The notes beneath the pieces were generated by a model. That model saw only the letters and a list, made by a program, of their open reading frames with translations, searched no databases and had not been told where the DNA came from. A DNA stretch of 41,067 nucleotides, taken from a virus. How positions within the stretch are numbered: position 1 is the first letter of the stretch; every line of letters starts with the position of its first letter. Position numbers and translations under genes: made by a program. The stretch is from positions 1 to 41,067 of IMG/VR virus record IMGVR_UViG_3300037189_007198; one strand, written 5' to 3'. Positions 568 through 37,773 of the stretch are shown here, in pieces.

Positions 568-1208
568 TGGTCATGCCCGCAAACCATTCATCCCCAATGA
601 TTCATTATTGGGCAGGGAAGCACCCAGGGAAGATGGGGTGGCTTATAGGACCAACTGCCATGCCCAAGACCAAATTGCGTCCTTGGATGCCTTTCGCGTT
701 GGACAATGATGCGTTCAGCGCATGGAGCAAGAAACGAGAGTGGGATGAGCGCATGTGGCTTACTATGATGGGGCAAGTGAAAGTATCTGGATTGACCCCG
801 AGATGGGCACTGGTCCCAGATGTTGTGGCAGATAGGGATGGCACGCTTGAAAAGTGGGAAAAGTATTCACCCATTGCTGCACAGTTCGGGTGGGACCTCG
901 CTTTTGCTGTGCAGGATGGGATGACACCTGCCGACCTACCAGACAACTGCGTGGTGTTTGTGGGCGGGACAACGGATTGGAAGTGGCAGAACTTGCCTAT
1001 GTGGACTGAGACAGGGAGACGGGTACATGTAGGTAGGGTGAATGAAATTAACAAAGTCCTGTGGTGCGAGGAGTTGGGGGTGGAGTCTGTGGATGGGACT
1101 GGGTGGATGAGAGGCACAGACGCAGGCAGGCAGGCAAGGGATTTAGCCGCATGGGTTGAGGGTGTGCATACAATCACAAGTTACGGAGACCCCTCTGATC
1201 TACTATGA
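564..1208 (+). CDS. dpdA: DpdA-like 7-deazaguanine DNA transglycosylase
   Basis: I recognise this 214-aa protein as the short phage type of DpdA, a relative of tRNA-guanine transglycosylase that exchanges guanine in DNA for a 7-deazaguanine such as preQ0. Recognisable blocks are LDNDAFSAW (about 47-55), VPDVVAD (85-91), AFAVQDGM (114-121), VFVGGTTDWK (132-141), HVGRVN (154-159) and GTGWMRG (178-184). These match the family pattern of an Asp-containing strand, QDG, GG-x-x-WK and GRVN. It overlaps queD (ATGATG at 564) and the helicase gene (ATGA). The start may instead be the Met at 597, which begins the conserved MIHYWAG segment. The C-terminus DPSDLL is identical to that of the methyltransferase at 35179. 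The family is recognised from memory of motifs, so the exact subfamily is uncertain. Confidence 0.82.
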   Translation: MMVMPANHSSPMIHYWAGKHPGKMGWLIGPTAMPKTKLRPWMPFALDNDAFSAWSKKREWDERMWLTMMGQVKVSGLTPRWALVPDVVADRDGTLEKWEKYSPIAAQFGWDLAFAVQDGMTPADLPDNCVVFVGGTTDWKWQNLPMWTETGRRVHVGRVNEINKVLWCEELGVESVDGTGWMRGTDAGRQARDLAAWVEGVHTITSYGDPSDLL

Positions 1209-2587
1209 CCCGATCCTTCACCCCCGACACACCCCAAGTCCTCGCCCACGCGCACCTCATGCGCTGCCTCCACGCCCTCCTGTTCGTCGGCATGGGCATA
1301 GGCAAGACTGCATCATGCCTCTCCGCCCTGCGCACCCTGTTCACCGAGTTGGAGGCAGAGGGTTGCCTCGTCGTCGCGCCCAACCGTGTCGCCAACCTCA
1401 CATGGCCGGAGGAGGTGCGGGACTGGGACGAGTTCAAGTGGATGAAGGTTGCCAACCTCCGCACCGATGCAGGGAAGCGGGCATTCCTCGATGGCAAAGC
1501 GGACATCTACACTATCAACTACGAGTCGCTGCACGTTGTCTCCAACCTCGTCGCTGCCCGTGGCGGCACCCTGCCCTACGATGTCTGCATCTTCGATGAA
1601 CTCACCAAGGCTAAGAACCCGAGCGCGAAGAGGATCAACCGTTTCCGTGCCAAGGTGCCACGCCCGCCCCGTGTGTGGGGTCTCACAGGCACACCGATGC
1701 CCAACAGCGAGCTTGACCTGTTCGCCCAGGTGCGACTGGTGGACGATGGGGTGAGGCTGGGCAAGGCGTTCATGCTCTACCGGGAGACATACTTCTCCAA
1801 AGCGGATTACATGGGGTACAAATGGGAGTTACGGGAGGGAGCACGTAACACCATAGAGGAGCGCATATCCGACATTACCCTAACCTTGCGCTCGAAGGAC
1901 TGGGTGGACATCCCAGACCCCATCATTGAGGACGTGGAGATACCGATGGGAGATGACCTCACCGAGCAGTATCGGGAGTTCGAGAAAACGCTTATCCTGC
2001 AACTCAAAGAGGGGGGTGAGATTACTGCTGCCACTGCCGCTGCCCTGGTAAGCAAGCTGCTCCAGTTCACCTCGGGTGCGAGCTACGATGAGGAGAAGGC
2101 AGTGCATGTCATCCACACCCTCAAGGTCGATGCCCTTCGCAAGATCGTGGCAAAGGCAGATGGTCCTGTGCTCGTCGCTGTCAACTTCCAGCATGAGCAG
2201 GACAGGCTGCGCAAGGCATTCCCCCAAGCTGAGTTTTTCCATGACGCCACCACGCCCACGCAGCAGGCTGCGCTCAAGGACAGATGGAATGCCGGGAAGG
2301 TGCCAGTGCTGGTGGCTCACCCCAAGAGCGTTGGGCACGGTCTGAATCTCCAACACGGGGGAAGCACGCTCGTCTGGACAACCTTGACCTACTCACGGGA
2401 GGACTACGAGCAGATGATCTGCCGACTGGCGAGGCGGGGTCAGACCAAGCAGGTGAGGGTCTATCGCCTCATCATCCCTGGCACCGTCGATGAGGTGGTA
2501 GCCTCGGTGGTGGAGAGCAAAGCGGACAACGAGGCAAAGCTACTCAACGCATTAACGATGTTGGAGGCACTACGCAATGGAGGGTGA
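1205..2587 (+). CDS. SNF2-type DEAD-like helicase/ATPase
   Basis: This 460-aa superfamily 2 ATPase has a complete motor: motif I GMGIGKT (29-35), motif II DELTKAKN (131-138, DE-box), motif III LTGTP (160-164), a GHGLNLQ segment for motif V, and motif VI around the QMICRLARRGQTK segment (about residues 400-412). These spacings and the arginine-rich motif VI are those of phage SNF2-like helicases, which translocate on dsDNA and usually sit in replication/recombination modules beside VRR-NUC nucleases, as here. The start overlaps the dpdA-like stop by four bases and has no Shine-Dalgarno, so translation is probably coupled. Its exact role (fork remodelling, recombination or DNA packaging control) is not visible. 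Confidence 0.92.
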   Translation: MTRSFTPDTPQVLAHAHLMRCLHALLFVGMGIGKTASCLSALRTLFTELEAEGCLVVAPNRVANLTWPEEVRDWDEFKWMKVANLRTDAGKRAFLDGKADIYTINYESLHVVSNLVAARGGTLPYDVCIFDELTKAKNPSAKRINRFRAKVPRPPRVWGLTGTPMPNSELDLFAQVRLVDDGVRLGKAFMLYRETYFSKADYMGYKWELREGARNTIEERISDITLTLRSKDWVDIPDPIIEDVEIPMGDDLTEQYREFEKTLILQLKEGGEITAATAAALVSKLLQFTSGASYDEEKAVHVIHTLKVDALRKIVAKADGPVLVAVNFQHEQDRLRKAFPQAEFFHDATTPTQQAALKDRWNAGKVPVLVAHPKSVGHGLNLQHGGSTLVWTTLTYSREDYEQMICRLARRGQTKQVRVYRLIIPGTVDEVVASVVESKADNEAKLLNALTMLEALRNGG

Positions 2588-3029
2588 AGGTCACTTCGAG
2601 TTCAGGAAGGATGTGCGACCTGGGAAGTGCCCAGTGCGGTTCTGTCGTCGGGACAGTCGGGCGGGTGACGGCAAACGTAAACCTGCCAAGCATCGGTTGT
2701 GCTGCAAACACCGTTCAACCCTCACCCGCATACTGGACCCCGTGCGCACCACGTTTGCAGAGAAGAAGTCCAACGCCAAGAGGCGGGGGATCGTATGGAC
2801 CCTCACACTGGAGCAATACACCGAGGTGGTGATGCAGCAGGAGTATATGGACAACCGGGGGCATGAGAGGCACTGCCTCCATCTGGATCGCATCGACCAC
2901 ACCCGAGGTTATGAGGTGGGCAACCTCCAGATCATCACCTGTGCGGAGAACGTGGCGAAGGGGAACAAGGAACGTAGGAAGGGCTATGTGCATATCCCCG
3001 AGGTCGAGGACGACAACTGCCCATTTTAG
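2577..3029 (+). CDS. HNH-family endonuclease-like protein
   Basis: The protein has 150 aa. The N-terminal part carries a likely zinc site (Cys18, Cys23, Cys42, Cys43). The C-terminal part has an HNH/His-Me-finger signature: HLDRID (102-107), a second His at 108, GYEVGNLQIIT (111-121) and AENVAKGN (123-130), the pattern of phage HNH enzymes in which the His/Asp, Asn and distal Asn line the metal site. It overlaps the helicase gene by 11 bases and has a GGAGG nine bases before the ATG. It ends the rightward unit, overlapping the stop of the opposing gene by four bases. Its last residues, EDDNCPF, resemble the acidic Pro-Phe tip of bacterial SSB. It could be a homing-type nuclease or a resident recombination/packaging nuclease. 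Confidence 0.8.
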   Translation: MEGEGHFEFRKDVRPGKCPVRFCRRDSRAGDGKRKPAKHRLCCKHRSTLTRILDPVRTTFAEKKSNAKRRGIVWTLTLEQYTEVVMQQEYMDNRGHERHCLHLDRIDHTRGYEVGNLQIITCAENVAKGNKERRKGYVHIPEVEDDNCPF

Positions 3030-3565
3030 CGCAGGATGTATGGGAAGGACTTTTGCCCATGCTTCTGCAACTGCCCATTGAGAAAGTCCCTGAACATCGC
3101 CCACTGCGCAGGTGGGATGGTCTGACACCCGAGCGAGCTTGTGCCTGTGTTGCTGCCACGGTGGATGTTGATACCAAACCATCCGGTGTCAGCACCAACC
3201 CCATCACGAATGACTGTGACGGGAGCAGCCTGTACAAATGCGGGGTATGGGTAGCCTGCGCGTTTGAAGGTGATACCGTGCTGTCCAGGTTTGTATCTCC
3301 AGACACCCAACTTGAGGGAAGCAACCCGAGGGCGGAAGATGGATGGATCGGTGTTGGCGTTGAAGGTGGCGAACGCATCTGGGGACACGACCACAATCGC
3401 ATCGTCATAGATGCCACGGTCATTCTGTGTTGGGTCCCCCATCGTCGTGCGGTAGTAACCACGAAAGCCAATGACTGCGACTGCATCTGTAATCCCAGCT
3501 TGAGCAAGAATTTTGCGAACGTCTGCTTCTGTGATGCGTGGGCGATTTTCAGGGATGATGTTCAT
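3026..3565 (-). CDS. Putative endolysin, L,D-transpeptidase (YkuD)-like
   Basis: The 179-aa product is the last gene of the leftward unit, in the usual lysis position after small membrane proteins. Residues 129-151 carry GWFGINIHRGSNT followed by SSLGCQTI: His135 then Ser144-x-Gly146-Cys147. This resembles the H...S-x-G-C catalytic signature of YkuD-type peptidoglycan enzymes. The N-terminal half (RGYYRTTMG, NDRGIYDDAI, FNANTDPS) is a block I have seen conserved in phage proteins of unproven function. No signal peptide or membrane segment is visible, so it would need a holin for release. The assignment to cell-wall hydrolysis is inference from the Cys/His motif and position. Confidence 0.6.
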   Translation of the reverse strand: MNIIPENRPRITEADVRKILAQAGITDAVAVIGFRGYYRTTMGDPTQNDRGIYDDAIVVVSPDAFATFNANTDPSIFRPRVASLKLGVWRYKPGQHGITFKRAGYPYPAFVQAAPVTVIRDGVGADTGWFGINIHRGSNTGTSSLGCQTIPPAQWAMFRDFLNGQLQKHGQKSFPYILR

Positions 3566-3569
3566 AGAG

Positions 3570-3965
3570 TTACCAGTTGATTGTGATAGTGACCTCAGCC
3601 CCGAGTGCCTTCAACTTGTCGAGGACAGAACGGTCCTGTGGGATGAGTTCGATTGCACCATTGAGGGTGTTCACCGAGACCTGCACCACTGCGCTCCCAC
3701 CCCGGTTCATCTTTGCCTTGGCTGCGTTGTGTGCGTCGATGACATGCTGCGCAATGCCAGATGAGGCATGTTCGGACATGGCGAGTTGGTGGATGGTTGG
3801 GAAGGGTGAGGGAGGTGGTGCCTCAGCGAATGGGGAGAACGCAGGTGCAATCTGCAACCTCTCTCCGTCCTCCGTGTGCCACTCCCCATCTGGGGTTTGA
3901 TGGATACGAGGGCGAACTGGTACGCGACCAACGACGTCTTTGATAGATACTCCAGGGGTGTTCAT
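3570..3965 (-). CDS. Hypothetical protein in lysis region
   Basis: I do not recognise this 131-aa protein. The first half is rich in Pro and has RPRIHQTPDGEWHTEDGE (about 18-35), a pattern of a short beta hairpin. The second half, from about residue 60, looks helical and ends in a beta segment (LGAEVTITINW). No signal peptide or membrane helix is visible, so it is not an obvious spanin or holin. It lies four bases upstream of the endolysin candidate and four bases downstream of a 48-aa membrane protein, so it is co-transcribed with the lysis genes. It may instead be a minor virion protein. No Shine-Dalgarno precedes the ATG. Confidence 0.7.
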   Translation of the reverse strand: MNTPGVSIKDVVGRVPVRPRIHQTPDGEWHTEDGERLQIAPAFSPFAEAPPPSPFPTIHQLAMSEHASSGIAQHVIDAHNAAKAKMNRGGSAVVQVSVNTLNGAIELIPQDRSVLDKLKALGAEVTITINW

Positions 3966-3969
3966 GGTG

Positions 3970-4116
3970 TTATGGGATTCGTGAAAGGTTGCAGTGAGGG
4001 TCTAGCCAAACCAAAAACGCCATCGCCGCCGCAAACCCTAGCAAGAGGATAATGCACTCAATGGCGCATCTCTTCATCTGCTTGAGCCTGTGACGGCGAT
4101 GTGCGTTGCGGGTCAT
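3970..4116 (-). CDS. Small single-span membrane protein (lysis cassette)
   Basis: This is a 48-aa reading frame that starts with an ATGA overlap with the stop of the upstream gene (4113-4116). It has a strongly basic N-terminus (MTRNAHRRHRLKQMKR) followed by one hydrophobic helix at about residues 17-39 (IIL, LLGFAAAMAFLVW) and a short polar tail. The positive-inside rule predicts a cytoplasmic N-terminus. Size, topology and position between a holin-like gene and the endolysin candidate fit a small holin, pinholin accessory or inner-membrane spanin fragment. No lipobox is present. Confidence 0.65.
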   Translation of the reverse strand: MTRNAHRRHRLKQMKRCAIECIILLLGFAAAMAFLVWLDPHCNLSRIP

Positions 4117-4678: not shown

Positions 4679-4681
4679 AGG

Positions 4682-4858: not shown

Positions 4859-4859
4859 A

Positions 4860-5873
4860 TCAATACGCTACGGTGATGAGTGATTCAAGTGCTGCAAGGT
4901 CAGGAGAAGAAGCAACATCTGCACCCCCCGTCAGATTTGTTAAATCTAAATACCCACCACCCGTGGTGATGTTACTTGCAAGGGCCGTTATAAGTGCATC
5001 AACACCTGCTTGATCAATGGGGTTGGTGTTGAGATACAAGTCTCCTATGAGCGAAGTCAGAGCAGCAAACCCAGGAGCAACAATCTCGTTACCACCAAGG
5101 TCCAGGAATCCGTCAAGAGAAGTCAGACTAGAGAACCCTGGAGTGGCAATTACGTTGTTGTTGAGTCTGAGAGTTCCAGCGAGGAGAGTCAGACTGGAGA
5201 ACCCAGGAATGCCGATTGAATTGTGACTGAGGTCTAATGAACCAGCAAACGAAGTCCAGCCAGTAAACCCTGGTGTGACGATCTGGTTTGCACCAAGATT
5301 CAAAGTGCCTGTAAATGGTGAGGTCAACCCAGTGAACCCAGGTGTGACGATCTGGTTTGCGTTAAGGTTGATAGACCCAGCGAGGGAAGTCAGACTAGAG
5401 AACCCTGGAGTCACAATATCATTTGCGTTGAGAATTAAAGACCCAGCAAACGAAGTCCATCCAGTGAACCCTGGAGTCACAATCTGGTTATTCCCAAGGT
5501 TAAGTGATCCCACAAATGGGGATGTCAGCCCAGCGAATCCTGGAATGACGATTGCATTGCTCGAAAGATTCAGAGTCCCAGCAAGTGAGGTTAGGTTGGC
5601 AAAATCAGGAGAGACAATCGCACCACTTGAAAGGTTCAAAGTCCCGCCAAGGGAACTGCCCGTGTAGATCACTGCTGTCACGCCCGAATTTGAAAATGTA
5701 GCAGACCCAGATGGGACAGAAGAAATCCACACACCTCTACCACCTGCTGCAACCGCAACAGCTTTATTCACAAAAGTCTGTGGGTCTGCTGGCACAGTTC
5801 CTCCAGGGACGGTAGCGTTGCCACCACCACTTCCAGGGGGAGAACCAAACCTGCTGTCACCAAACCCACTCAT
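4860..5873 (-). CDS. Leucine-rich-repeat virion protein, candidate tail adhesin
   Basis: The 337-aa protein has a Gly/Pro-rich N-terminus (1-30), a short linker domain (31-76), and then about ten tandem leucine-rich repeats of 22-23 residues (77 to about 306). The consensus is G-x-L-x-L-x-x-N-x-I-x-x-P-G-F-x-x-L-T-S-L/F-x. The last repeat is degenerate and acts as a cap. Leucine-rich repeats form curved protein-binding solenoids, rare in phage tails. The position after the ejection proteins and before lysis is where podoviruses keep tail fibre or receptor-binding genes, so binding of a host surface molecule is the likely role. Adjacent repeats share long stretches of DNA, so copy number could change by recombination. 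Confidence 0.7.
   Translation of the reverse strand: MSGFGDSRFGSPPGSGGGNATVPGGTVPADPQTFVNKAVAVAAGGRGVWISSVPSGSATFSNSGVTAVIYTGSSLGGTLNLSSGAIVSPDFANLTSLAGTLNLSSNAIVIPGFAGLTSPFVGSLNLGNNQIVTPGFTGWTSFAGSLILNANDIVTPGFSSLTSLAGSINLNANQIVTPGFTGLTSPFTGTLNLGANQIVTPGFTGWTSFAGSLDLSHNSIGIPGFSSLTLLAGTLRLNNNVIATPGFSSLTSLDGFLDLGGNEIVAPGFAALTSLIGDLYLNTNPIDQAGVDALITALASNITTGGGYLDLTNLTGGADVASSPDLAALESLITVAY
5046..5645 (-). repeat. Tandem 66/69-bp repeats encoding leucine-rich repeats
   Basis: Nine consecutive units of 66 or 69 bp lie in frame in the leucine-rich-repeat gene; the tenth, at 4956-5045, is degenerate. Units ending GWTSFA (two) and TSPF (two) are nearly the same in DNA, pointing to duplication of two- to three-unit blocks. 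Units of 23 residues have an extra codon at the TSPF end. Confidence 0.85.
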
Positions 5874-6127: not shown

Positions 6128-6141
6128 ACGGGAGAAGGGTA

Positions 6142-22245: not shown

Positions 22246-22551
22246 TTAGCCCACCGTGACGGTTGGGTAGAGTGCGGCGTAGGCATCGGGGTGATTCTTC
22301 CTGAACCACTCCTTCACTGCCGGAGTCTTGTCCCCCTCTTCGATGGAGGCAAGCTCTGCGGGGTAAGCTGGGATGACCATTCCACGCACGATGCGTGCGT
22401 TGGGATCAACCTCTGCTGGCAACTCGGGTTCTGCCACCCTCGCCTGCTTGGTTGCTGGTTTCTTGGGTGCATCTCCAATGAGGTCCTCATCGGTGACACG
22501 GGTTCTCGCAACCTTCTTGGCTGCGACCTTCTTTGCTGCTTTTTTAGCCAT
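22246..22551 (-). CDS. Small basic protein with lysine-rich N-terminus
   Basis: The 101-aa product begins with a histone-like Lys/Ala run (MAKKAAKKVAAKKVARTR, 1-18), then TDEDLIGDAPKKPATKQ and a C-terminal part with a predicted small helical fold (PAVKEWFRKNHPDAYAALYP, about 77-96). The N-terminus should bind nucleic acid or an acidic partner. The short stretch DEDLIGD resembles DDDLIGE at the start of the large terminase. It sits between portal-proximal and scaffold genes, suggesting a head-assembly role. I do not recognise the family. Confidence 0.7.
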   Translation of the reverse strand: MAKKAAKKVAAKKVARTRVTDEDLIGDAPKKPATKQARVAEPELPAEVDPNARIVRGMVIPAYPAELASIEEGDKTPAVKEWFRKNHPDAYAALYPTVTVG

Positions 22552-24546: not shown

Positions 24547-25266
24547 TTAGCCGAGTGTGGGTTTCGCCCCCTGTGCCGTAGCGGAGGGTGCGGGGGTGGA
24601 GGACTTGCCTGTGTCACCTGCTCCCAGCTTGGAGCGGGCAAACCCACGGCGCATCTTGGCTGCTTTCCGAAACTCCTGTGCCGCTGCCTCCGCATCTTGT
24701 GATGTCTGACTCGGGGGTGGCGCATACTTGGGTGTGGGTGGCGCGACGAAGGCGGGCATCTCAGGCTGCTCCTTGCCCATCGCCGCAAGCTGCTGCTTGA
24801 GCAGTTGGTTGTTGAGCTTGTCGTTCTCCTTCTGCGTCTTGGATGGACCACCACCTCCCCCGCCTCCGAACTGGTGCTGCTGCTCGGGTTGCTGGTGCCA
24901 CTGGGTAGGAGGTAGGGTTTTCATAAGTTTGCGGGTCAACTTCTCAAAACTATACCCCCGCAGACGGTTGTCACGCGCAAAAGCGATGTAGGGGAGGGGG
25001 TATGGGATGAGGTGCAGGACGGTGCGCAAGTCCCCCGTGCAGAGCCAAACCATCCAGCAGTTCGGGTTGGGTTCGTGGTGGATGGGCACTGTGCCATGCT
25101 TGAGCAGACGGGGTGTGAGCAGGATTGGGAACCCCCATAAGCAGCAGGTTGGGGTCTCAATGGTCTTGCCCTGCGGGAGGCTGCGGATGAGGTGCCGCTC
25201 GGTGACGTAGCGCACTGCGTTGTCGTTGTAGAGGTTGAGTGCCTGTTGCTTGGGTGTGGCTCTCAT
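24547..25266 (-). CDS. Head-region protein with Gly-run hinge, unknown
   Basis: The 239-aa product has two parts. Residues 1-115 form a compact domain (NAVRYVTERHLIRSLPQGKT; HHEPNPNCWMVWLCTGDLRT; PYIAFARDNRLRGYSFEKL) of unknown family. A run of seven glycines (about 134-140) leads to a Gln/Pro-rich tail with helices and a basic C-terminal segment (AAQEFRKAAKMRRGFARSKL) ending near a GDTG turn. Similar basic ends occur in small podovirus proteins coded between terminase and portal. It overlaps the terminase stop by four bases. The N-terminal domain could be compared with the small acyltransferase-like proteins of T7-like phages, but I cannot support that from motifs. Confidence 0.7.
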   Translation of the reverse strand: MRATPKQQALNLYNDNAVRYVTERHLIRSLPQGKTIETPTCCLWGFPILLTPRLLKHGTVPIHHEPNPNCWMVWLCTGDLRTVLHLIPYPLPYIAFARDNRLRGYSFEKLTRKLMKTLPPTQWHQQPEQQHQFGGGGGGGPSKTQKENDKLNNQLLKQQLAAMGKEQPEMPAFVAPPTPKYAPPPSQTSQDAEAAAQEFRKAAKMRRGFARSKLGAGDTGKSSTPAPSATAQGAKPTLG

Positions 25267-26999
25267 GGTGTCTGCATGATGACCTTCACCGTGCGTTGTC
25301 CAGTGATGGAAGTTGTTCCATTCTCCCGCTCCTCAACGCGCAGGTGGGTACGAACGAGCGACTGCTCATCCGCCTCAGCATAGGTCCTGAACCCGTCCGC
25401 TGCGTGGTCGCAAATCCCATCCTTGAAAGGGTTGGTCGAGGCTGCACCGGAGGTCGATGGGCGAACTCGGTAGCCTTCGAGTCGCACCACTCCACCTGGG
25501 TGCTCGTTCCCATCGGTGTCGGTGGTGGGCGTGTCGGTGCGGACGTGAAACCAGCAGCGTGGCAGCATCTTGCGCACAGCATCGACCCCTGCCCACACAT
25601 CCGGAGTGCGGGGCACCACGGTGATCTTGTTGCGGGGGATGCCACACTTGACCAAGTTCTCCACATAGGTGAGACCGGAACCCTTGTCGGTGGTGTTGGC
25701 ATCGTGCGGGATGATGAGTTGCACGATCTGCCCGTGGGTGGTCTCCCACTTGCGAAAGGTCTCTGCCACCCATGCTGCCCCCTTGCCCTCTCCGAACGCA
25801 CAGTCGATCACGTTGTGCTGCTTGCCTGCTGGCTGGTGCAACCATAGTGCCGTGTTGACCGAGGAACCGAGGTCGGCAGAGAGGAAGAAGGGGAGGTGCG
25901 GTTCGGGGTTGAAGGTTGTGACACGCCCTTGGTTGCGCACCGTGGTCATCTCAGGGTAAATCTGCCCAGTGACGTTCGCCATGTCGCACTCGTCCACTGT
26001 GCTGGGGAACTGCTGCCACATGAGGTCCTTGAGCGACTCCCGTTTCTTCTCCCACCACGCTTGCCGATCTGAGGGGATGACTCCATTCTCCCACCCGAAC
26101 TTGTCCATGATCCAGAACCGATGCGTCTCAGTCAGCTTGTCGAAGTAGTCCGTGGTGGACTGGAGCTTGGGGCGGGCACCACGGATGCGGTAGGAGGGAT
26201 GCCCCAACCATGAGAAGAAGTGCATCTTCCAGTCCAGGGGTGTGAGTTGATTCTCCTTGGTGGCGTGGAGTGCCTGCTTGAAGATGTGGTAGCAGTGCCC
26301 GATGCGCCCACCCTCCATCGTGGTCTCCACGTCGATGGTGCCGTTCATGGGCACAGCATTCATGGAACCCCGCACAATGTCCTCAGCCACCTTGGGTGCC
26401 TGTGCTGCGATGGGTCCAAACTCGGAGATGTGGAGCTTGAGCGGAGTCTTACCCGTGTAGCGCACCCCTGCGGTGTACTCAGAGCCATTGCGCCATGCGA
26501 GGTGCCCATTGGATGAGGACATGAGCTTATTGGACTTCGTGATGATCGTTGCCCAGATCATGCGCAGAGCTAGGTCGGGGTGCTCTGTTGGTCCCTTGTC
26601 CCATGCGAAGCGGGCGATGGCGAGCTTGTCCTGCGCATCCGCCTCCTTGATGTCGATCACCCCACACCGGAAGTCTTTGGTGAACAGGCAGGAGTCGAGG
26701 TAGTCGAGGACGATCAAGGTGCTCATACCGAGCTTACGTGCCTTGGGGACGAAGTTGCGGTGGTGCCTGTTCTGGAGGAAATCGATCTGCTCATGCCGGA
26801 GTCTGAACTGCTCAACGAGACCATCCTCGTTGAGGATCACGTAGAGGTTGTTCATCCTCCACATCTTGTCACTGAACTTCTCGGTGACGAGTCTGGCTAA
26901 CTCCTGTGGCGTGGGCTGGCGTGGTGCAAGGTAAGCCTCAGCCATGCGTGTTGCCCGTTCGAGGGGTGTCTCCCCAATGAGGTCGTCATCGTCGGTCAT
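25263..26999 (-). CDS. Terminase large subunit
   Basis: From the Met at 26999 (MTDDDDLIGE), which overlaps the preceding stop by four bases, the protein is 578 aa; the longer frame from 27053 would invade the upstream gene. The ATPase shows a deviant Walker A ARKLGMST (87-94) and a Walker B/catalytic pair ISEFG (191-195, Glu193). The nuclease shows LSADLGS (Asp376), IIPHDAN (Asp433) and DHAADGF near the C-terminus. This is the packaging motor that cuts and translocates genomic DNA at the portal. The acidic N-terminus resembles the DLL-type tails found on other proteins of this phage. The deviant Walker A (R-x-x-G-x-S) is usual for this terminase group. Confidence 0.93.
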   Translation of the reverse strand: MTDDDDLIGETPLERATRMAEAYLAPRQPTPQELARLVTEKFSDKMWRMNNLYVILNEDGLVEQFRLRHEQIDFLQNRHHRNFVPKARKLGMSTLIVLDYLDSCLFTKDFRCGVIDIKEADAQDKLAIARFAWDKGPTEHPDLALRMIWATIITKSNKLMSSSNGHLAWRNGSEYTAGVRYTGKTPLKLHISEFGPIAAQAPKVAEDIVRGSMNAVPMNGTIDVETTMEGGRIGHCYHIFKQALHATKENQLTPLDWKMHFFSWLGHPSYRIRGARPKLQSTTDYFDKLTETHRFWIMDKFGWENGVIPSDRQAWWEKKRESLKDLMWQQFPSTVDECDMANVTGQIYPEMTTVRNQGRVTTFNPEPHLPFFLSADLGSSVNTALWLHQPAGKQHNVIDCAFGEGKGAAWVAETFRKWETTHGQIVQLIIPHDANTTDKGSGLTYVENLVKCGIPRNKITVVPRTPDVWAGVDAVRKMLPRCWFHVRTDTPTTDTDGNEHPGGVVRLEGYRVRPSTSGAASTNPFKDGICDHAADGFRTYAEADEQSLVRTHLRVEERENGTTSITGQRTVKVIMQTP

Positions 27000-27220
27000 A
27001 GCAAGTCGTCCCCCTCCTCTGTGAGCTTGGGTCCACGTCTGGCGCACCCGCATGATGTCGTGTTACCACGTTTGAGGTTGTAAGCTGGGAGCTTGATCTT
27101 CCCCCCACACTCACAGTCACAAAGCCACCATGCGTCCCTTCTGTCGAGGATCGGGTTGCGCACCCTCTTGCGAGCGGTGAGCTTGCCATAGCGTTGTCCT
27201 GTGAGGTCGTAGGCGAACAT
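26996..27220 (-). CDS. Small zinc-finger protein
   Basis: The 74-aa product contains LTGQRYGKLTARKRV (6-20), WWLCDCECGG (31-40), LKRGNTTSCGC (49-59) and a tail EEGDDLL. Four cysteines in C-x-C...C-x-C spacing with the RYGKLT and W-x-CDC-x-CG blocks match the zinc-binding module found at the front of many phage HNH/AP2-type homing proteins, here without any nuclease domain. It is the first gene after the 27232-27260 promoter, only about five bases from the predicted transcription start, and overlaps the large terminase gene by four bases. It could be a DNA-binding packaging factor or a remnant of a homing endonuclease. Confidence 0.75.
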   Translation of the reverse strand: MFAYDLTGQRYGKLTARKRVRNPILDRRDAWWLCDCECGGKIKLPAYNLKRGNTTSCGCARRGPKLTEEGDDLL

Positions 27221-27577: not shown

Positions 27578-27616
27578 GTGTATTTGGTCATACGGTTATT
27601 GTATGTAGTTATACAC
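27578..27616. repeat. Symmetric two-armed palindrome at the small terminase stop
   Basis: GTGTAT (27578-27583) and CATAC (27589-27593) are mirrored by GTATG (27601-27605) and ATACAC (27611-27616), with equal 5-base gaps and a 7-base centre. The equal spacing suggests a dimeric protein site. The layout, two inverted arms about a 7-base spacer, is also that of tyrosine-recombinase core sites, but no integrase is encoded. Confidence 0.55.
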
Positions 27617-28182
27617 TAAAGCAGGTCCTCGCCATCGTCCTCCACCGGGGGAGGCGGGGCGGGGAGTGTGAGGGGTGCGGATGTGGGGAGAGCTAAGCCC
27701 ATGAGAGCCTCCAGTGCATTAGCAACGGGGGCAAGCTCGCCAGTGTCGGAGGTTGCGGGTGCAAGCTCTCCGGCCATCATGGCGTCAAGCTGGATTGCTT
27801 TGAGCTTATCTGGGAGTTTGACTTGGACCTTTTCTTCGACCTCGCCTGAATCGGTTATGCGCCGTGTCACTGTAACTGATTGTGCAAGGTGGGGTTTATC
27901 CGCCATCACAGTCTGGGGATTTGCGCGGGTGAGGTCCGCTAGAAATTGCCTCCTCTCGTCATGGCTGAGGAATCTTGACTGCACAGCATTTGCCCTCAGC
28001 CTCTCCACCTCAGCCATAATATGAGGAGAACGGCAGCACCGGGAACCCTCAGTTTGACACGTTCCATGAGAGGCATCGGGCCGAGCAGCTTGATAGGCTT
28101 TGGTAGCATTGCCCCCATTCCTCACATACTCCATTGCCCATGCTTCCTCCCATTTCTTCAGCTTGATGTCAGTTACAGTCAT
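27616..28182 (-). CDS. Terminase small subunit
   Basis: The Met at 28182 (MTVTDIKLKKWEEAWAMEYV) is preferred, giving 188 aa; a longer frame adds an unlikely Cys/Gly-rich leader. The N-terminal helix-turn-helix pattern, WAMEYVRNGGNATKAYQAAR (about 15-34), followed by CRSPHIMAEVERLRA, is characteristic of Terminase_2-type small subunits, which recognise the packaging site and regulate the large subunit. A middle oligomerisation helix (DERRQFLADLTRANP) and a Pro-rich C-terminus follow. The protein ends DDGEDLL, one of the shared acidic tails. Unusually, 395 bases and another gene separate it from the large subunit. Confidence 0.85.
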   Translation of the reverse strand: MTVTDIKLKKWEEAWAMEYVRNGGNATKAYQAARPDASHGTCQTEGSRCCRSPHIMAEVERLRANAVQSRFLSHDERRQFLADLTRANPQTVMADKPHLAQSVTVTRRITDSGEVEEKVQVKLPDKLKAIQLDAMMAGELAPATSDTGELAPVANALEALMGLALPTSAPLTLPAPPPPVEDDGEDLL

Positions 28183-28208
28183 TCCACACAATCCCCCAAC
28201 CCCGCAAC

Positions 28209-28248
28209 CCCGCAACCCCGAACAAGTCCGTTAATATGTCCGTTAATA
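28209..28248. repeat. 40-bp direct repeat, copy 1, with two 12-bp iterons
   Basis: This copy is identical to 28295-28334. It starts CCCGCAACCCCG and contains GTCCGTTAAT at 28226-28235 and 28238-28247, a period of 12. Confidence 0.9.
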
Positions 28249-31039: not shown

Positions 31040-31042
31040 CAG

Positions 31043-31296: not shown

Positions 31297-31308
31297 CACC
31301 ACATCACC

Positions 31309-32055
31309 ATGAAACGCATACCCTGGCACAACCCCGCACAACAGACACCCCCAGAAGGCTACCGACTGCTCATCCTCGAAGAGGTGGAGTCGCCACCCAC
31401 CCACAAAGGCATGGTCCTGACTATCTTCAAGAAGTGGGTAGCATTGGAGCTTGGTCCGGTTCACCCAGACTGCACATACGCAGTCCCCAGCGACACCCCG
31501 CTGCCCAAGGGATACACGCTCATCGACGGTGACGTGTGGCAGATGAACGGATGGACGGCGCACACGCCCGGGGCACTGTTTGATGTCACAGGCAAAACCC
31601 CGATGGACCCAGACACCTTAGTTGAAGTCATGCTGCGCAACGGTGAGAAGGTCACAGGACCGATGATGCAGCATTGGTTTGGGCGGGTGCCCAGCGAACC
31701 CCGTGCAGAGGTCATCGGGTGGCGGGTTTTGGATGAAGCACCCAAGCCCCTCATGGCGTTGGATGCACACCAGTTGCACCCGATGTTCAAAGACCCTGTG
31801 GAGGAGTTTGCAAAGGACCGCAACGCCGCATTGAACAAAGGGACAGATGAGTTGCTGGTGGGGGCGATGGCTGCCCAGCCACCCCACGAACTGCTAAACA
31901 AGTGGCAGGAGGAATTGCGCAAAGTGTTGATCCCCCTCATGGGCAAAGCCTTTGAAGCTGCCCACCGTGAACTGCTGGACGAGAACCAACGCCTCAAGAA
32001 CCAACTTGCCGATGCGCAGGCAACCATCAAATCCATCCGCTCCCTGCTGCCATGA
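31309..32055 (+). CDS. Hypothetical protein with C-terminal coiled coil
   Basis: The 248-aa product is mostly unrecognised. Residues 1-60 (HNPAQQTPPEGYRLLILEEV; KKWVALELGPVHPDC) and 100-135 (TLVEVMLRNGEKVTGPMMQH then WFGRV) look like two small beta domains; the second has the form of a short repeated domain seen in phage proteins of the early region (D-x-LVEV-x-LR-x-G-x...W). The C-terminal 60 residues are a coiled coil (AHRELLDENQRLKNQLADAQ). It begins 12 bases after the regulator stop in an ATCACC-ATG context and overlaps the next gene by four bases. No catalytic residues are evident. Confidence 0.75.
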   Translation: MKRIPWHNPAQQTPPEGYRLLILEEVESPPTHKGMVLTIFKKWVALELGPVHPDCTYAVPSDTPLPKGYTLIDGDVWQMNGWTAHTPGALFDVTGKTPMDPDTLVEVMLRNGEKVTGPMMQHWFGRVPSEPRAEVIGWRVLDEAPKPLMALDAHQLHPMFKDPVEEFAKDRNAALNKGTDELLVGAMAAQPPHELLNKWQEELRKVLIPLMGKAFEAAHRELLDENQRLKNQLADAQATIKSIRSLLP

Positions 32056-32450
32056 GCACCATGATCCCCATCCTCTCCAAGAGGCACAACCTTTGCCGTG
32101 CGAAGTCCTACGGTGCGGACTACTACCTCACCCCCAGTCAGGGCAAGAACCCATCGTGGTCATGCTATGGCACCACCGCAGCCCAGATACGCAAACTTAT
32201 GGGTCACTCCTCCAACACCCACCAGTGCGTCAACTGGCAGGACGATGAGCTTGAGAAGGCATTCTACCAACTCAGCGTGCCCGAGAAGCATGTGCGTGCG
32301 TTCGTGGCTAAGTTAAGCACCCACGGCAGCGTTGCCCTTGTCGAACCAAGCGGGCAACTCGGTGCAGAGCGTGAGACCCTGTTCGAGTGCATCGCAGTGG
32401 TGCCTAAGCTGGGCAGTGCGGCAACCGCAGACGACGATGACCTCTTGTAA
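32052..32450 (+). CDS. Hypothetical protein with DDDDLL tail
   Basis: The 132-aa product is compact in its first 110 residues (GADYYLTPSQGKNPSWSCYG; QIRKLMGHSSNTHQCVNWQD; LSVPEKHVRAFVAKLSTHGS), with three cysteines and two histidines that might bind a metal, although spacing is not that of a known finger. It ends in an unstructured ATADDDDLL, the longest of the shared acidic Asp-Leu-Leu tails. It overlaps the previous gene by four bases. No family is recognised; the tail suggests it joins the same complex as the other tailed proteins. Confidence 0.75.
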   Translation: MSTMIPILSKRHNLCRAKSYGADYYLTPSQGKNPSWSCYGTTAAQIRKLMGHSSNTHQCVNWQDDELEKAFYQLSVPEKHVRAFVAKLSTHGSVALVEPSGQLGAERETLFECIAVVPKLGSAATADDDDLL

Positions 32451-32474
32451 CCTTTAACCCACCACCACATCACC

Positions 32475-32567: not shown

Positions 32568-32581
32568 TCTCGCCACCCCAG

Positions 32582-35182
32582 ATGCGCTACTACACCGGAC
32601 AGACCATTGAGGGGTGGGTCAAAGCCTCGTCTGCCAACTCGTTCAAGGAGTTGGTGGACAGGCACCTCACCCCCATCCCGCTCAACATCACCCGCACCCA
32701 GTATGCGGAGATGACACCCAAGGAGCGGGATAAGGCAAAGCAGGTGCCCTACCTCACCCCCGCTGCGTTCAACGCCCCAAAGTGCCCACGCAGGACCGAG
32801 AATGCAACCCAATGCAACCTCATCTTTCTTGACATCGACACTGCCAAGGATGGCACATCACCCGCTGCCCCGCTCCTCGCCAATCTGGACTTGGTGGAGC
32901 AGCAGATGGAACCGTGGTCGTTCTGCATCTACCACACCGCATCCAGCACCCCCGCAGCACCCCGCCTACGGGTCATGGTCGATGCCGATGCCATCCCGCT
33001 GGACACCTACGATGATGCTGCCCGCACAATTGCCCGCACCCTCGGTCTTACCAAGATCAACAGTGAGTCGATGGTGCCTGTGCAAGCCATGTTCCTCCCT
33101 TCTCTGTTCGCAGACGAGGACCCAGAAGAATACCAACCCCTCATCCTCTCCAACACCGATGGACGACCATTCACCACATCCGACATCTCCTCAGCAGCCA
33201 ACGAGGTGCAGACCGAATCAAGACGCAAGCAGGGGGGTGCCATGTCAGCAGATGGCACACTGGACCCTCTTGACTTCCTTCGCGCTCCTCTTGACAACAT
33301 GCCACTCTCCCGAGTCGAGGAGATGCTTGAGTGTGTGGACCCAGACATCGAGTACAGGGAGTGGTTGGAGGTGGCTACCGCACTCAAGCACCAATTTGCG
33401 GGCACTGCTGAGGAGGAAGCAGCGTATCTCCTCTTCGACCTGTGGAGTGCCAAGGGGACCAAGTATCAGGGAGAGGACGAGACCCGTGCTAAGTGGGATT
33501 CCTTCAAACCCACCCCGCTCAATCGCCAACCTGTTACAATCCGCAGCCTCATGCACAGAGCCAGTCTTGCTGGTTGGGACATGTCCACTGCGAAGGACGA
33601 ACAGTTCAAGCAGACTGCCAGTTGGCTTGAGCAGGCACCAACGCTGAGTAAGCTACTCTCAGAAGGACTGACACGCATCATCACCACCCCCCTGTTGTCG
33701 CAGGCAGAGGAGGAGGCACTGCTCAATCAACTGTGCAAGGAGGCATCACGCCTCGGGAGCAAGGTCTCCATCACCGCACTGCGCAAGGACATGCGGATGC
33801 TGCGTGACAAGCTCAAGGAGAAACCCACCGACAAGGGCAAAACCAATCAACCACCGTGGACTCGGGGCGTATTCTATGTCGCCTCTGCCGAGGAGTTCTT
33901 TCGCCACTCAACGGGGGAGAAGTACACCCAGCGATCATGGGATGCTGTATATGGCAAACGCCTGCTACCCACCGAGAAGCAACTACTGGAGGCAGGACTC
34001 GAAGCGAGTGTGGCGAACCTCAGCAGACCGATGCTGCCCGCCAACCAGTTTGCCCTCAACACGGTGAAGATACCCTCGGTGTGGGACTACACCTACGATC
34101 CATCATCCCCGAATGACCTGTGGGTGATTAACCAAGGCAAGGCGTTCGTGAACACCTACCGCCGCTGCCACCCGCACCCCAACGCTGCCCAGTCGGAAGA
34201 GGCAGGTGCGATCTTCATGGATCACATGCGCAAGCTAATCGCAGAGGAGGAGTACGTGCTCATCCTCGTGGACTGGATGGCTTATATGGTTCAGGTGCCG
34301 GGAGATAAGATTCAATGGGCACCACTCATCCAGGGTGCGGAGGGGTGTGGCAAGAGCATCCTCGGCACCACGATGTCTGCCGTCCTTGGCAAGCCCCATG
34401 TGAAGAGCATCGGGGTGCAGCAGATTCACTCGGGATTCACCGAATGGGCAACGGGTGCGCAACTGGTTATCATCGAAGAGGTGAAGGTCGATGGGATGCG
34501 CAGCACCGAGGTGATGAACGTGCTCAAGCCCCTCATCTCCAATGATGAGGTAAGTGTATCGCAGAAGTTCAAGGATGCCCGTCTTGGGCTCCCCAATAAG
34601 ACTTCCTACATGCTGCTCACCAACCACCGAGACTCTATGCCAGTCACCCCCGAGGATCGCCGCTACTGCCCAGTGCAGAGTGCCATCCAGACAGCACAGC
34701 AGGTGCGTGCGTTGCAGCAGAGTGGACACTTTGAACGCTATGTGGAGATGGTGCAGAACATGGCTGGAGGACTACGCCACTGGTTCGAGAATTACCCCAT
34801 CCGCCCCAGCTTCAACCCAAAGGGCAGTGCCCCTGTCACCATCTACCGGAAGGAGTTGGTCGATGACTCCGCATCCCCTGCAATGGCAGCAGTGCGCAGG
34901 CTAATCTCCGAGGGGGACCACCCTCTTGTCCAAGCAGACTTGGTGAGCAGCAAGGTGCTCATGGAACTGCTGGAGATGGAACGGTTGAAGTCCATCACCG
35001 CACAGGGATTGGCTAACATCCTGCGTGACTCCAACTACAAGCAGATTGGCAGACACATCGTGGACGATGAGAGGCACTACCTGTGGGTACACTGCAACGC
35101 ACCCGAGCGGGATTACGTGGAGGTGGCGAGACACCGGAGAGCGAATGAGTTAATTCACCTTGAAATGGAGATGGTGCTATGA
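32582..35182 (+). CDS. Primase / SF3 helicase fusion
   Basis: The 866-aa protein joins two replication activities. Residues about 1-190 look like an archaeo-eukaryotic primase-type domain with the strand IFLDIDTAKDG (Asp84 and Asp86 as the metal pair) and the distal YHTASSTPAAPRLRVMVD. Residues about 240-310 (PLSRVEEMLECVDPDIEYRE; ALKHQFAGTAEEE; RAKWDSFKP) match the PriCT-2 linker. From about 560 the helicase domain shows Walker A GAEGCGKS (585-592), Walker B LVIIEE (Glu632, Glu633) and sensor-1 YMLLTNHRDS. The C-terminal 90 residues form a winged-helix-like end. It would unwind and prime at the origin. It overlaps the methyltransferase gene by four bases. Confidence 0.9.
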   Translation: MRYYTGQTIEGWVKASSANSFKELVDRHLTPIPLNITRTQYAEMTPKERDKAKQVPYLTPAAFNAPKCPRRTENATQCNLIFLDIDTAKDGTSPAAPLLANLDLVEQQMEPWSFCIYHTASSTPAAPRLRVMVDADAIPLDTYDDAARTIARTLGLTKINSESMVPVQAMFLPSLFADEDPEEYQPLILSNTDGRPFTTSDISSAANEVQTESRRKQGGAMSADGTLDPLDFLRAPLDNMPLSRVEEMLECVDPDIEYREWLEVATALKHQFAGTAEEEAAYLLFDLWSAKGTKYQGEDETRAKWDSFKPTPLNRQPVTIRSLMHRASLAGWDMSTAKDEQFKQTASWLEQAPTLSKLLSEGLTRIITTPLLSQAEEEALLNQLCKEASRLGSKVSITALRKDMRMLRDKLKEKPTDKGKTNQPPWTRGVFYVASAEEFFRHSTGEKYTQRSWDAVYGKRLLPTEKQLLEAGLEASVANLSRPMLPANQFALNTVKIPSVWDYTYDPSSPNDLWVINQGKAFVNTYRRCHPHPNAAQSEEAGAIFMDHMRKLIAEEEYVLILVDWMAYMVQVPGDKIQWAPLIQGAEGCGKSILGTTMSAVLGKPHVKSIGVQQIHSGFTEWATGAQLVIIEEVKVDGMRSTEVMNVLKPLISNDEVSVSQKFKDARLGLPNKTSYMLLTNHRDSMPVTPEDRRYCPVQSAIQTAQQVRALQQSGHFERYVEMVQNMAGGLRHWFENYPIRPSFNPKGSAPVTIYRKELVDDSASPAMAAVRRLISEGDHPLVQADLVSSKVLMELLEMERLKSITAQGLANILRDSNYKQIGRHIVDDERHYLWVHCNAPERDYVEVARHRRANELIHLEMEMVL

Positions 35183-35994
35183 CTAAATTTAAGTGCATTG
35201 TTGCAGACCCACCATGGCCCATTGGGGACTTCCCGGCATGGTTTAATAAGGAGCGCAGAAGCCAGCGCGAGAGCAAAATTGGGGTGAATCCAACCCCATA
35301 TAAAACCATGACCCTGCCTGAGATTGAGAAATTGCCAGTGGGGGATGTGTCAGCAGATGGTGCCCACCTATATCTGTGGACAACAGACGCATTTTACGAG
35401 GCAGCTTTGCGGGTTGCAAGAGCTTGGGGGTTTGAAAAATCTGCAACTTTGGTGTGGTGCAAAAAACCAATGGGGAAAGGTTTGGGTGGAACTTACCCAA
35501 GCAATGTGGAGTTTATTTTGTTCTGCCGCCGTGCTCATAATTTGGGGTGGCAGGAGTTCGGTGAATGGCTGCGCGGCAAGAGGTTAGCCGCTGGGAAAAC
35601 CACCGCCCAAATGTGTGAAGCTCTTGGTAAGCACGGCAAAGTGAATCATGGTGGTGTGCAAAGCAATTGGGAGAAAGGTCTTGCAGTGCCCACACCCCAG
35701 CAGTGGTGTGGTATAAAGCATCAACTCATGCTATCCGATGAGATGGATACTTGGGTAGAACGCCTGCAACCACAAAAAGGAGGAGCTAGGGCTGAGGGGA
35801 GGTGGTTTCAGTGGGCAAGAGGTAGCCATTCACAGAAACCAGAAGCATTTCAAGACATGGTGGAGAAGATTAGCCCTGGCCCTTACTTAGAGCTTTTTGC
35901 AAGACGCAGGCGAGAAGGGTGGGCATCTTGGGGCAATGAGGTGCAATGCGACATCAATCTGCAAAAGGAGGATGATCCATCCGATCTGCTCTAA
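35179..35994 (+). CDS. MT-A70-type adenine-N6 DNA methyltransferase with inserted HTH-like domain
   Basis: The 271-aa enzyme has the catalytic DPPW (10-13), the MT-A70 blocks YKTMTLPEIEKLPV (41-54), AHLYLWTTDAF (62-72) and WGFEKSATLVWCKKPMGKGL (83-102), and the closing SHSQKPEAF (216-224) and YLELFARRRREGWASWGNEV (236-255). It should transfer methyl from S-adenosylmethionine to adenine N6 in DNA. Residues about 124-205, between the last two blocks, carry an extra XRE-like helical segment (FGEWLRGKRLAAGKTTAQMC; GVQSNWEKGLAVPTPQQW), likely a target-recognition insert. Codon use is richer in A+T than the neighbours, suggesting recent transfer. It ends DPSDLL, as does the DpdA-like enzyme. Confidence 0.9.
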   Translation: MTKFKCIVADPPWPIGDFPAWFNKERRSQRESKIGVNPTPYKTMTLPEIEKLPVGDVSADGAHLYLWTTDAFYEAALRVARAWGFEKSATLVWCKKPMGKGLGGTYPSNVEFILFCRRAHNLGWQEFGEWLRGKRLAAGKTTAQMCEALGKHGKVNHGGVQSNWEKGLAVPTPQQWCGIKHQLMLSDEMDTWVERLQPQKGGARAEGRWFQWARGSHSQKPEAFQDMVEKISPGPYLELFARRRREGWASWGNEVQCDINLQKEDDPSDLL

Positions 35995-36096
35995 AAATTT
36001 TCACCAAATCACTTGACGTTTAATGCAGAAAGTGAAATGGTGATTAACACGCAGGAAGTCCTGCTTCAACAACCCAAAACCAAATACACTGATACA

Positions 36097-36462
36097 ATGC
36101 AACCGATCCTTGATCTACTAATCCGCCTCGTCGTCGCACTCGAACTCATCGCTGCCAAACACGGCAACGGTGCTGCTCCTGTCGCCGTGACCACGGTGGA
36201 GTCTGAACCCGAAACCAAACCCGCACCTGCACCCAAGGGCAAAGCCAAGGCACCCGCCAAGGAAGAACCCAAGGTGGACTTCGAGGCACTGCGCAGCGAG
36301 TGCAAAGCCAGCATCACCGCACTCGTTGAGAGCGGACGCAAGGACGCAGCCAAGAAGGTGCTCGCCGCCCACGGTGTTGCCAAGCTCGCTGAACTCGCAG
36401 ACGAGAAGCTGCCGGACATCAAGGCCGACCTCGCCAAGCTGGAAGAGGAAGACCTCAGCTAG
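36097..36462 (+). CDS. Small helical protein of the replication module
   Basis: The Met at 36097 (MQPILDLLIRLVVALELIAA) is chosen, giving 121 aa; upstream frames lack a good start and include a TTGACG at 36013. An N-terminal hydrophobic helix is followed by a Pro/Lys/Ala-rich linker (ETKPAPAPKGKAKAPAKEEP) and a C-terminal helical domain, DFEALRSECKASITALVESG, then VLAAHGVAKLAELADEKLPD. The hGVAKL-x-ELxxEKLP pattern is familiar from small proteins next to phage recombination or ssDNA-binding genes. The end LEEEDLS is a weak form of the shared acidic tail. Confidence 0.7.
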   Translation: MQPILDLLIRLVVALELIAAKHGNGAAPVAVTTVESEPETKPAPAPKGKAKAPAKEEPKVDFEALRSECKASITALVESGRKDAAKKVLAAHGVAKLAELADEKLPDIKADLAKLEEEDLS

Positions 36463-36473
36463 CCCAACAGTCT

Positions 36474-36491
36474 CACGGGGGCAACCCCGTG
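36474..36491 (+). other. GNRA-loop hairpin before the DUF2800 nuclease gene
   Basis: CACGGGG and CCCCGTG (36474-36480, 36485-36491) form a 7-bp stem with a GCAA tetraloop; a second small stem CCCC-TGC-GGGG follows at about 36507-36517. No T run follows, so this is an RNA-stability or translation element rather than a terminator. Confidence 0.5.
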
Positions 36492-36531
36492 GGGCAATTC
36501 CAGTTCCCCTGCGGGGGTATTGAAACTGCCC

Positions 36532-37773
36532 ATGCCCACCACACCACAACACGCTCAACGCAAGCACTCCAGACTCGCTCCATCAGGTGCCTCGGTCTGG
36601 ACCGTCTGCACTGCATCCCCGATCTACCTTGAGCAGAATGAGGATCGTGTGGTGCGGGAGGATTCAGCCTATTCCCTCGAAGGCACACTCGCCCATGAGG
36701 TTGCAGACTGCTTGATGCGTGGGCAGCGTGTCCCGCACAATGCTACTCGGGAGATGATGGATCATGGCAACGCTTATAAGCGGTATTGCCAAGCACTGCA
36801 CCCCGAGGGCAAGACAGTGCCGGATGCCGTTGAACTCAGCGTGCCCCTGTTCTACCTCCCCGAGGACAATGGGCATGTGGACTACCTTCTCATGCTGCCC
36901 GAGCACAACACCATTCACGTTGTGGACTACAAGTTCGGCAAAGGTGTGAAGGTGTTCGCTGAGGAGAACAAGCAGATGTCCATCTACGCTCGGTCTGCCT
37001 TGGAGGAGTATGACCTCACAGGCTGGGTGAATGACACAACCAAGGTCATCATGCACATCTACCAACCCCGTTGTCGCAAGGAGGAGGGTGAGGGTCCTGC
37101 CTCGGTCTGGGAGACTACCTGGGACCACCTGCGCCTCTTCACCGAGCGGGACATCGCTGTGCCCGCACAACTCATCAAGGATCGCACCACTCACCTGCTC
37201 AAGTTCGTGCCCTCCGATGCCACCTGCCGTTGGTGTCCTGCTGCTGCATGGTGCGAGGCACGGGCAGAGCAGATCGTCACCGGAATGCCAGTGGTGCGCC
37301 GGATGACTCAGGTGGAACCGATCACACCCACCCCGCCCGAGCAGATCACCGATGAGAACATGGCGCAGGTGCTCGCCCACATCCCCTCAGTCCGCAAGTG
37401 GATGGACCAAGTGGAGGAGTATGCGGAGAAGAGGGCGAAGGCTGGCAACCCTGTGCCGGGAACTAAGTTGGTCGAGGGACGGGGGACACGGGGGTGGGCA
37501 GTAGAACCCGTGGCAGTTAGCAGGGTGGTAGCGGTCCACTCAGGACTCAGTGCCTACGAGGAGATTGAACCCACCCTCTTATCCCCATTTGCCCTCGAAG
37601 AGAAGATGAAGGCAGCAGGGGTGAAGAAGAAGGACAGGGACAAGGTGCTTGCCCTCGCAGTCCGCACCCCCGGCAAGCCTATCCTTGCCATGTCCGATGA
37701 CCCACGCCCCGAGTGGAAGGCAGTGGACGCACTCGCAGAGTTCAGCGATCTGGACGCAGAAGATTTGCTGTGA
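36532..37773 (+). CDS. DUF2800 PD-(D/E)XK nuclease
   Basis: The ATG at 36532 (MPTTPQHAQRKHSRLAPSGA) is preferred to an upstream TTG, giving 413 aa. The Cas4/RecB-like nuclease core is visible: EGTLAHE (50-56, His55), GHVDYLL (114-120, Asp117), HVVDYKFGKG (129-138, Asp132 and Lys134) and Q-x-x-xYA (148-153). A cysteine group CRWCPAAAWC (about 226-235) may complete an Fe-S or zinc site. DUF2800 proteins are encoded in phage replication modules next to DUF2815 ssDNA-binding proteins, exactly as here, and probably act as recombination exonucleases. It ends in DAEDLL, one of the shared tails. Confidence 0.9.
   Translation: MPTTPQHAQRKHSRLAPSGASVWTVCTASPIYLEQNEDRVVREDSAYSLEGTLAHEVADCLMRGQRVPHNATREMMDHGNAYKRYCQALHPEGKTVPDAVELSVPLFYLPEDNGHVDYLLMLPEHNTIHVVDYKFGKGVKVFAEENKQMSIYARSALEEYDLTGWVNDTTKVIMHIYQPRCRKEEGEGPASVWETTWDHLRLFTERDIAVPAQLIKDRTTHLLKFVPSDATCRWCPAAAWCEARAEQIVTGMPVVRRMTQVEPITPTPPEQITDENMAQVLAHIPSVRKWMDQVEEYAEKRAKAGNPVPGTKLVEGRGTRGWAVEPVAVSRVVAVHSGLSAYEEIEPTLLSPFALEEKMKAAGVKKKDRDKVLALAVRTPGKPILAMSDDPRPEWKAVDALAEFSDLDAEDLL

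Follow-up and report, generated by a model that had tools for sequence, protein, structure and literature searches.

The single-stranded DNA-binding protein (SSB) of bacteria ends in an acidic tail with a hydrophobic end (SSB-Ct, DDDIPF), which serves as a hub code for proteins of DNA metabolism. In bacteriophage T7, the SSB gp2.5 ends in ADEDGDF and the primase-helicase gp4 in DWSNDTDF; the gp4 tails contact basic patches of the gp5 polymerase (PMC12593628), and a paper on the Enc34 SSB implicates the gp2.5 tail in contacts with the polymerase and the primase-helicase (PMC5686142). We analyzed the virus record IMGVR_UViG_3300037189_007198 (G000, 41,067 bases; hereafter the window, meaning this whole stretch of DNA), in which six unrelated proteins, the products of 6 of 41 genes, carry an acidic C-terminal tail ending in Asp-Leu-Leu (DLL). 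The initial annotation of this DNA knew of no described system of this kind; T7, whose gp2.5 and gp4 bind gp5 through acidic tails (GDF and TDF), provides a precedent. The record is probably a complete circular genome, because its ends overlap by 87 bp. A nucleotide search found no near relative among GenBank phages, and the closest relative (G001; IMG/VR 3300043464_001103, 44 kb) was found through two proteins, at ~86-88% protein identity. The six carriers are as follows.

564-1208 (+): DpdA-like (TGT-fold) enzyme with homologues annotated as DpdA-like; tail GDPSDLL, last six codons at 1188-1205
26996-27220 (-): 74-amino-acid zinc-finger/HNH-like protein (phrog_374); tail EEGDDLL
27616-28215 (-): small terminase (TerS; Terminase_2); tail DDGEDLL
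32052-32450 (+): 132-amino-acid protein of unassigned family, for which a homologue search gave no named homologue; tail DDDDLL, kept in G001
35179-35994 (+): MT-A70 family adenine methyltransferase; tail DDPSDLL
36520-37773 (+): DUF2800 PD-(D/E)XK exonuclease; tail DAEDLL, identical in G001

All of the tails that the initial annotation had described, including the variant forms EEEDLS and DDEDDLG on two further proteins, were present where it had placed them, and their number is not explained by the background rate. DLL ends were found in 2 of 2,427 genes of other phages (0.08%), both from relatives that also use LL tips, compared with 6/41 in the window (binomial P about 1.4e-12 against this base rate and 2.5e-14 from composition), and when 41 phage proteins were drawn at random 2,000 times, the commonest C-terminal tripeptide never occurred more than four times. 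The window proteins ending in LL are exactly the six DLL carriers; moreover, only 8 of the 2,317 stop-terminated six-frame segments end in DL[L/I/F/G/S/V/M], all eight being the ends of credible genes. Inspection of the tails of the 19 structural, lysis or large-terminase genes found the tag on none of them. Recent DNA duplication was excluded as the origin of the tails, because their codons vary among the genes and the last 21 coding bases are identical at 8-15 of 21 positions in pairwise comparisons.

G001 lacks the DpdA, QueD and methyltransferase genes and has the other four DLL genes, and DLL is kept in all of these (4/4). The linker of the small terminase is almost wholly changed (VEDDGEDLL in the window, LALDDGGDLL in G001), and that of the zinc-finger protein, which ends in SPEEDDLL in G001, is altered with an indel; the Leu and Asp codons of the DLL tails, including those of the small terminase, differ synonymously between the two phages. 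The preservation of DLL despite synonymous codon changes and diverged linkers argues that selection acts on the last residues as a peptide, which the initial annotation had preferred to DNA duplication. Two variant tails were also kept in G001, namely DDLG on the SSB and EEEDLS on a protein that had been described as 121 amino acids long; the tail of the latter stands, and its length is 149 amino acids when counted from an upstream TTG start. The genes of the window that enter the comparisons below, in addition to the six carriers, are as follows.

36013-36462 (+): 149-amino-acid protein upstream of DUF2800, related to phrog_3127; variant tail EEEDLS
37818-38363 (+): T7-type (Enc34/DUF2815) SSB, assigned by Pfam; variant tail DDEDDLG
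32582-35182 (+): primase-helicase (PriCT_2/DUF5906); ends in LEMEMVL here, tagged in many other phages
38692-40698 (+): family A DNA polymerase (PolA), never tagged; candidate receptor, favored from T7 gp5
2577-3029 (+): HNH/EndoVII-like protein; host-SSB-like tail EDDNCPF, separate from the DLL tag, with the same end in G001

The AlphaFold2 (AF2) model of the SSB (predicted local distance difference test, pLDDT, 92.8) matched the Enc34 SSB and T7 gp2.5 in Foldseek, so that a gp2.5/Enc34 fold is combined with an acidic C-terminal tail predicted to be disordered. The model of the DpdA-like enzyme is a TIM barrel with TGT as its top PDB match and a tail pLDDT <50. In both models the tails were left at low confidence, as for disordered tails.

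We compared the window with phages that share its replication module, consisting of a T7-type (Enc34-type) SSB, a DUF2800 exonuclease, PolA and a primase. In many of them, a phage-specific acidic tip (DDL, DEI, DEV, DLLG, DFC, FEV or DMLG) recurs on unrelated DNA-transaction proteins; often, the SSB and DUF2800 of one phage end alike, with ends that differ from phage to phage. For example, Salmonella phage Chi has DEV on the primase, exonuclease, SSB, small terminase, RdgC-like gp58 and gp62, and Pseudomonas phage SS2019XI has DL on nine genes, including those for the primase, DUF2800, SSB, small terminase, RdgC and ParB. The tip D[DE]I is found in Aeromonas AhMtk13b on the SSB, DUF2800, primase, TerS, SNF2, RdgC and the protein upstream of DUF2800, [DE]L on nine genes of Pectobacterium MA11, and DLLG on three proteins of Ruegeria V7. 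The SSB and the primase-helicase do not have the same tip in the window, whereas they do in many other phages.

These agreements were evaluated in 53 phages dereplicated at 70% PolA identity, with a match defined as identity of the last two residues (D and E taken as equal) and shuffled pairing as the null; PolA alignments were used for the collection scan, since a first SSB alignment was too diverse. Tip matches exceeded expectation for SSB and primase (11/36 compared with 1.07 expected), SSB and DUF2800 (10/47 compared with 1.57) and DUF2800 and primase (8/34 compared with 0.77), each with 0/5,000 shuffles, as well as for DUF2800 and TerS (6/15 compared with 1.25, P = 0.0006) and several further protein pairs. 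PolA, used as a negative control, had no last-two-residue matches with other proteins. A count made without reference to protein families gave six phages with at least five genes sharing the commonest acidic tip, compared with about 0.2 expected, and a repeated tip was absent in 24 of the 53 phages. In a second, independent set of 22 Chi-related phages, matching of the last residue held for SSB and TerS, SSB and the upstream protein, and DUF2800 and primase. Tip matching was not found in 27 prophage representatives, mostly from Firmicutes, that have the same genes and whose SSBs end in acidic DFL[SA]. The window phage, like several of its comparators with other tips, thus has one acidic tip on three or more unrelated DNA proteins; a tip of this kind, kept in relatives and different from lineage to lineage, is what we propose to regard as a phage-wide tag.

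The same enzyme may carry different tags, or none, in different phages. DpdA homologues align to the window protein over residues 1-200 of 214 only. Those with 71% and 67% identity in other phages end in ELALAL and LCLEGA and thus bear no tag, and a homologue in phage L326 (64% identity) ends in KKDEDFC and lies directly upstream of a SNF2 helicase ending in KHEEDFC. Judging from these sequences, DpdA is a natural tag swap, with cores 64-71% identical and ends that are DLL, DFC or untagged. The DFC lineage, which includes L326, bears the FC end on the primase, DUF2800, two DNA methyltransferases, a VRR nuclease, SNF2 and DpdA, and terminal Cys, a rare tip, is found on six proteins of one phage of this lineage. 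Similarly, a 70%-identical homologue of the window MT-A70 methyltransferase in an unrelated phage ends in PQNA without a tail; DLL is thus conserved within the lineage and absent from close DpdA and methyltransferase homologues in other phages, and so passes the check that the initial annotation had named. The tag of the resident phage is found on methyltransferases of the MT-A70, D12, N6_N4, C5 and phrog_757 types, the last four having been found in L086, L089/L340, L347 and MA11, and L347 has MLG on three methyltransferases, a ligase-like protein and a replication-initiation-like protein. Positional homologues of the 149-amino-acid protein elsewhere also bear the tags of their own phages.

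Some further observations concern these lineages. Two phages of the DFC lineage (L342 and L343) have DIC on the primase and DUF2800 and FC on VRR and SNF2; possibly their tip is in the course of changing, or else there may be two classes of tip side by side. Additional candidate tags are WI on SNF2 and a methyltransferase (L341), EWI on SNF2 (L344) and IPDETI on the primase and a methyltransferase (L093). In two lineages with different tags (window 187-2587 and L326:489-2922), QueD, a DpdA-like enzyme and a SNF2 helicase are encoded together in a conserved block of three genes, which suggests 7-deazaguanine DNA modification coupled to a helicase; no further preQ0 pathway genes were noticed in the window.

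The sharing of tips, their conservation, their phage-specific matching and their gain or swap on homologous enzymes are features of the sequences themselves, and from them we infer that the DLL tail is probably this phage's version of a shared docking tag, that is, a binding peptide read by a single, phage-encoded replisome receptor. The tag would be a disordered acidic C-terminal peptide with a short hydrophobic tip, and its carriers would act on phage DNA, in single-strand binding and annealing or as exonuclease, primase, SNF2 helicase, packaging initiator, DNA methyltransferases, DpdA and resolvase-type nucleases. One receptor in the replication complex would hold all of the tagged proteins, and such docking would couple replication, modification, recombination and packaging initiation on phage DNA. 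Tags and receptor would evolve together, which would make the tip lineage-specific, and an enzyme gained from another source would take on the tag of the phage that it entered. The simplest mechanism would be an enlarged T7-like arrangement, with many DNA enzymes docked on one phage replisome protein. With some reserve, we lean toward the wider idea of a lineage-specific address code, in which a single receptor made by the phage would read the short acidic-hydrophobic tip; a DNA enzyme of any kind, such as a methyltransferase, nuclease or DpdA of recent acquisition, would join the replication complex by evolving that tip.

A phage-encoded receptor is most likely, because lineage-specific tips imply a reader that co-evolves with the tags, and by analogy with T7 gp5 the most likely candidate would be PolA. 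The fact that PolA is itself untagged is no evidence for such a role, because its C-terminus belongs to the conserved polymerase fold. The AF2 model of the SSB leaves the tail undocked and is therefore of no help in choosing the receptor.

Several observations weigh against a single docking tag of this kind. The SSB and the primase of the window end in DDLG and MEMVL, neither of which is exactly DLL, and the SSB of the DFC lineage is without FC, whereas the T7 SSB bears the tail. Some DNA proteins, including some methyltransferases, are untagged in tagged phages. In the 22 Chi-related phages most of the last-two-residue tests were not significant, because this clade shares similar DDL/DDI tips. 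In addition, the mutual information between the tip and alignment columns of PolA, SSB, SNF2, VRR, primase and DUF2800 was confounded by shared ancestry and did not discriminate between candidate receptors.

It is conceivable, though rather unlikely, that the receptor is instead the groove of the phage SSB, the tails of other proteins binding in trans where the SSB's own tail and single-stranded DNA bind, so as to recruit enzymes to SSB-coated DNA. In crystals of the Enc34 SSB, the concave sheet of one molecule takes up the C-terminal tail of its neighbor, similar arrangements are seen in other DUF2815 proteins and T7 gp2.5, and removal of the tail alters DNA binding (PMC5686142). The window SSB has this fold, and such an arrangement would explain why the SSB deviates from the tag in the window and in the DFC lineage. 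However, the SSB tail is of low confidence in the AF2 model (pLDDT 74-55) and is not docked, T7 tails are known to bind the polymerase, and in many phages the SSB tip matches exactly, as for one more client.

The initial annotation had interpreted the tails as a docking peptide gathered on one hub, and had named two candidate hubs, the SSB-tail-reading pocket and the host sliding clamp. The first part of this proposal agrees with our results, since the tails appear to behave as a shared docking element on modification, nuclease, packaging and replication proteins, whereas the host hubs seem improbable. Host SSB tails are in general likewise acidic with a hydrophobic end, and ends resembling SSB mimics do occur on the HNH/EndoVII-like protein of the window (EDDNCPF) and on proteins of L128 (DDDIPF) and L321 (DDIPF). 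However, the six DLL tails (DPSDLL, EGDDLL, DGEDLL, DDDDLL, DPSDLL and DAEDLL) contain neither the Gln found 4-5 residues before the hydrophobic end in clamp motifs (QLxLF and variants) nor the Pro-Phe end of bacterial SSB-Ct mimics. Moreover, the tips vary between phages (DLL, DDL, DEI, DEV, DFC, DMLG and others) and co-vary inside each, a pattern more in keeping with a phage receptor that evolves along with them than with a pocket conserved in the host. The host-SSB-like ends are distinct from the phages' own tags (those of L128 and L321 are FIDDDIPF at L128:8916-9182 and DSDDIPF at L321:5361-6542), and their bearers are possible mimics that dock on host SSB-binding proteins.

It is more improbable still that the tails are C-terminal degrons or stability signals, or signals for capsid targeting, as their C-terminal position and shared hydrophobic tip might suggest, packaging and ejection of some enzymes being conceivable. 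Known ssrA-type degrons end in AA, unlike the phage tips; core replication proteins (SSB, primase and exonuclease) are among the carriers, and the window genes for structural proteins, lysis or the large terminase are all untagged (0/19); T7 tails of the same form bind the polymerase. Finally, chance or compositional bias can practically be dismissed, for although acidic tails are common in these phages and many have no repeated tip, the base-rate and shuffle tests contradict it, as do the conservation of DLL while codons and linkers change, the occurrence of such rare tips as terminal Cys, and the lack of matching in the mostly Firmicutes prophages despite their acidic SSB tails.

If the tails are indeed docking tags read by a phage-encoded receptor, the organization of phage replisomes would invert the logic of SSB tails, one reader serving many tail bearers, and a two-protein detail long known from T7 would become a general principle across a large phage group. 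The last residues of a protein would then predict which uncharacterized phage proteins work at the replication complex, here the 132- and 74-amino-acid proteins and the 149-amino-acid family. The way in which modification enzymes gained by horizontal transfer come to freshly synthesized phage DNA would also be explained. Since each phage would have its own version of the code, its proteins would be insulated against those of other phages.

Related residues were also observed at N-termini. The large terminase (25263-27053, -) begins with MTDDDDLIGE, its start probably being the ATG that overlaps the stop of the zinc-finger gene, which would place DDDDLIGE at the N-terminus, and a 101-amino-acid protein of the structural region (22246-22551, -) has VTDEDLIGD near its N-terminus; the element is common to both and conserved in G001. 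The initial annotation had correctly noted these two motifs (DDDLIGE and DEDLIGD) and had regarded them as looking related to the DLL tail; they are not C-terminal, and the relation is at most putative. A 337-amino-acid protein of leucine-rich repeat-like repeats (4860-5873, -) lies among the late genes and is absent from G001.

The system of the window resembles that of T7 in its acidic disordered tails with matching hydrophobic ends on unrelated proteins of one phage, in an SSB of the same fold and in a polymerase of family A. It differs in that T7 has two carriers and a terminal aromatic residue (Phe), whereas here there are six or more carriers, the window tips end in Leu-Leu, and the tip varies by phage. 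The carriers in the window phage also extend beyond the T7 set to accessory modification enzymes, a nuclease and the small terminase, and T7 tails dock on gp5, whereas the receptor here is a candidate by analogy. The window SSB is a member of the Enc34/DUF2815 group by Pfam and fold; the available portion of the Enc34 paper covers the SSB tail alone, without mention of a tip shared by other phage proteins (PMC5686142). The beta sliding-clamp motif QL(D/S)LF is likewise a short hydrophobic peptide, sometimes C-terminal, on many unrelated proteins, but it has the Gln that all six tails lack, and the tip here is phage-specific. No description of a shared phage C-terminal tag was found in the literature searched, which leaves out most subscription journals. 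Bacterial SSB-Ct has one bearer and many readers, an arrangement that the phage tag inverts, with many bearers and no Pro-Phe. The chemistry of an acidic C-terminal tail with a hydrophobic tip is already known from bacterial SSB and T7, whereas one tip on many unrelated enzymes, other tips in other phages and acquisition of the tip by accessory modification enzymes appear, as far as that literature extends, to be new.

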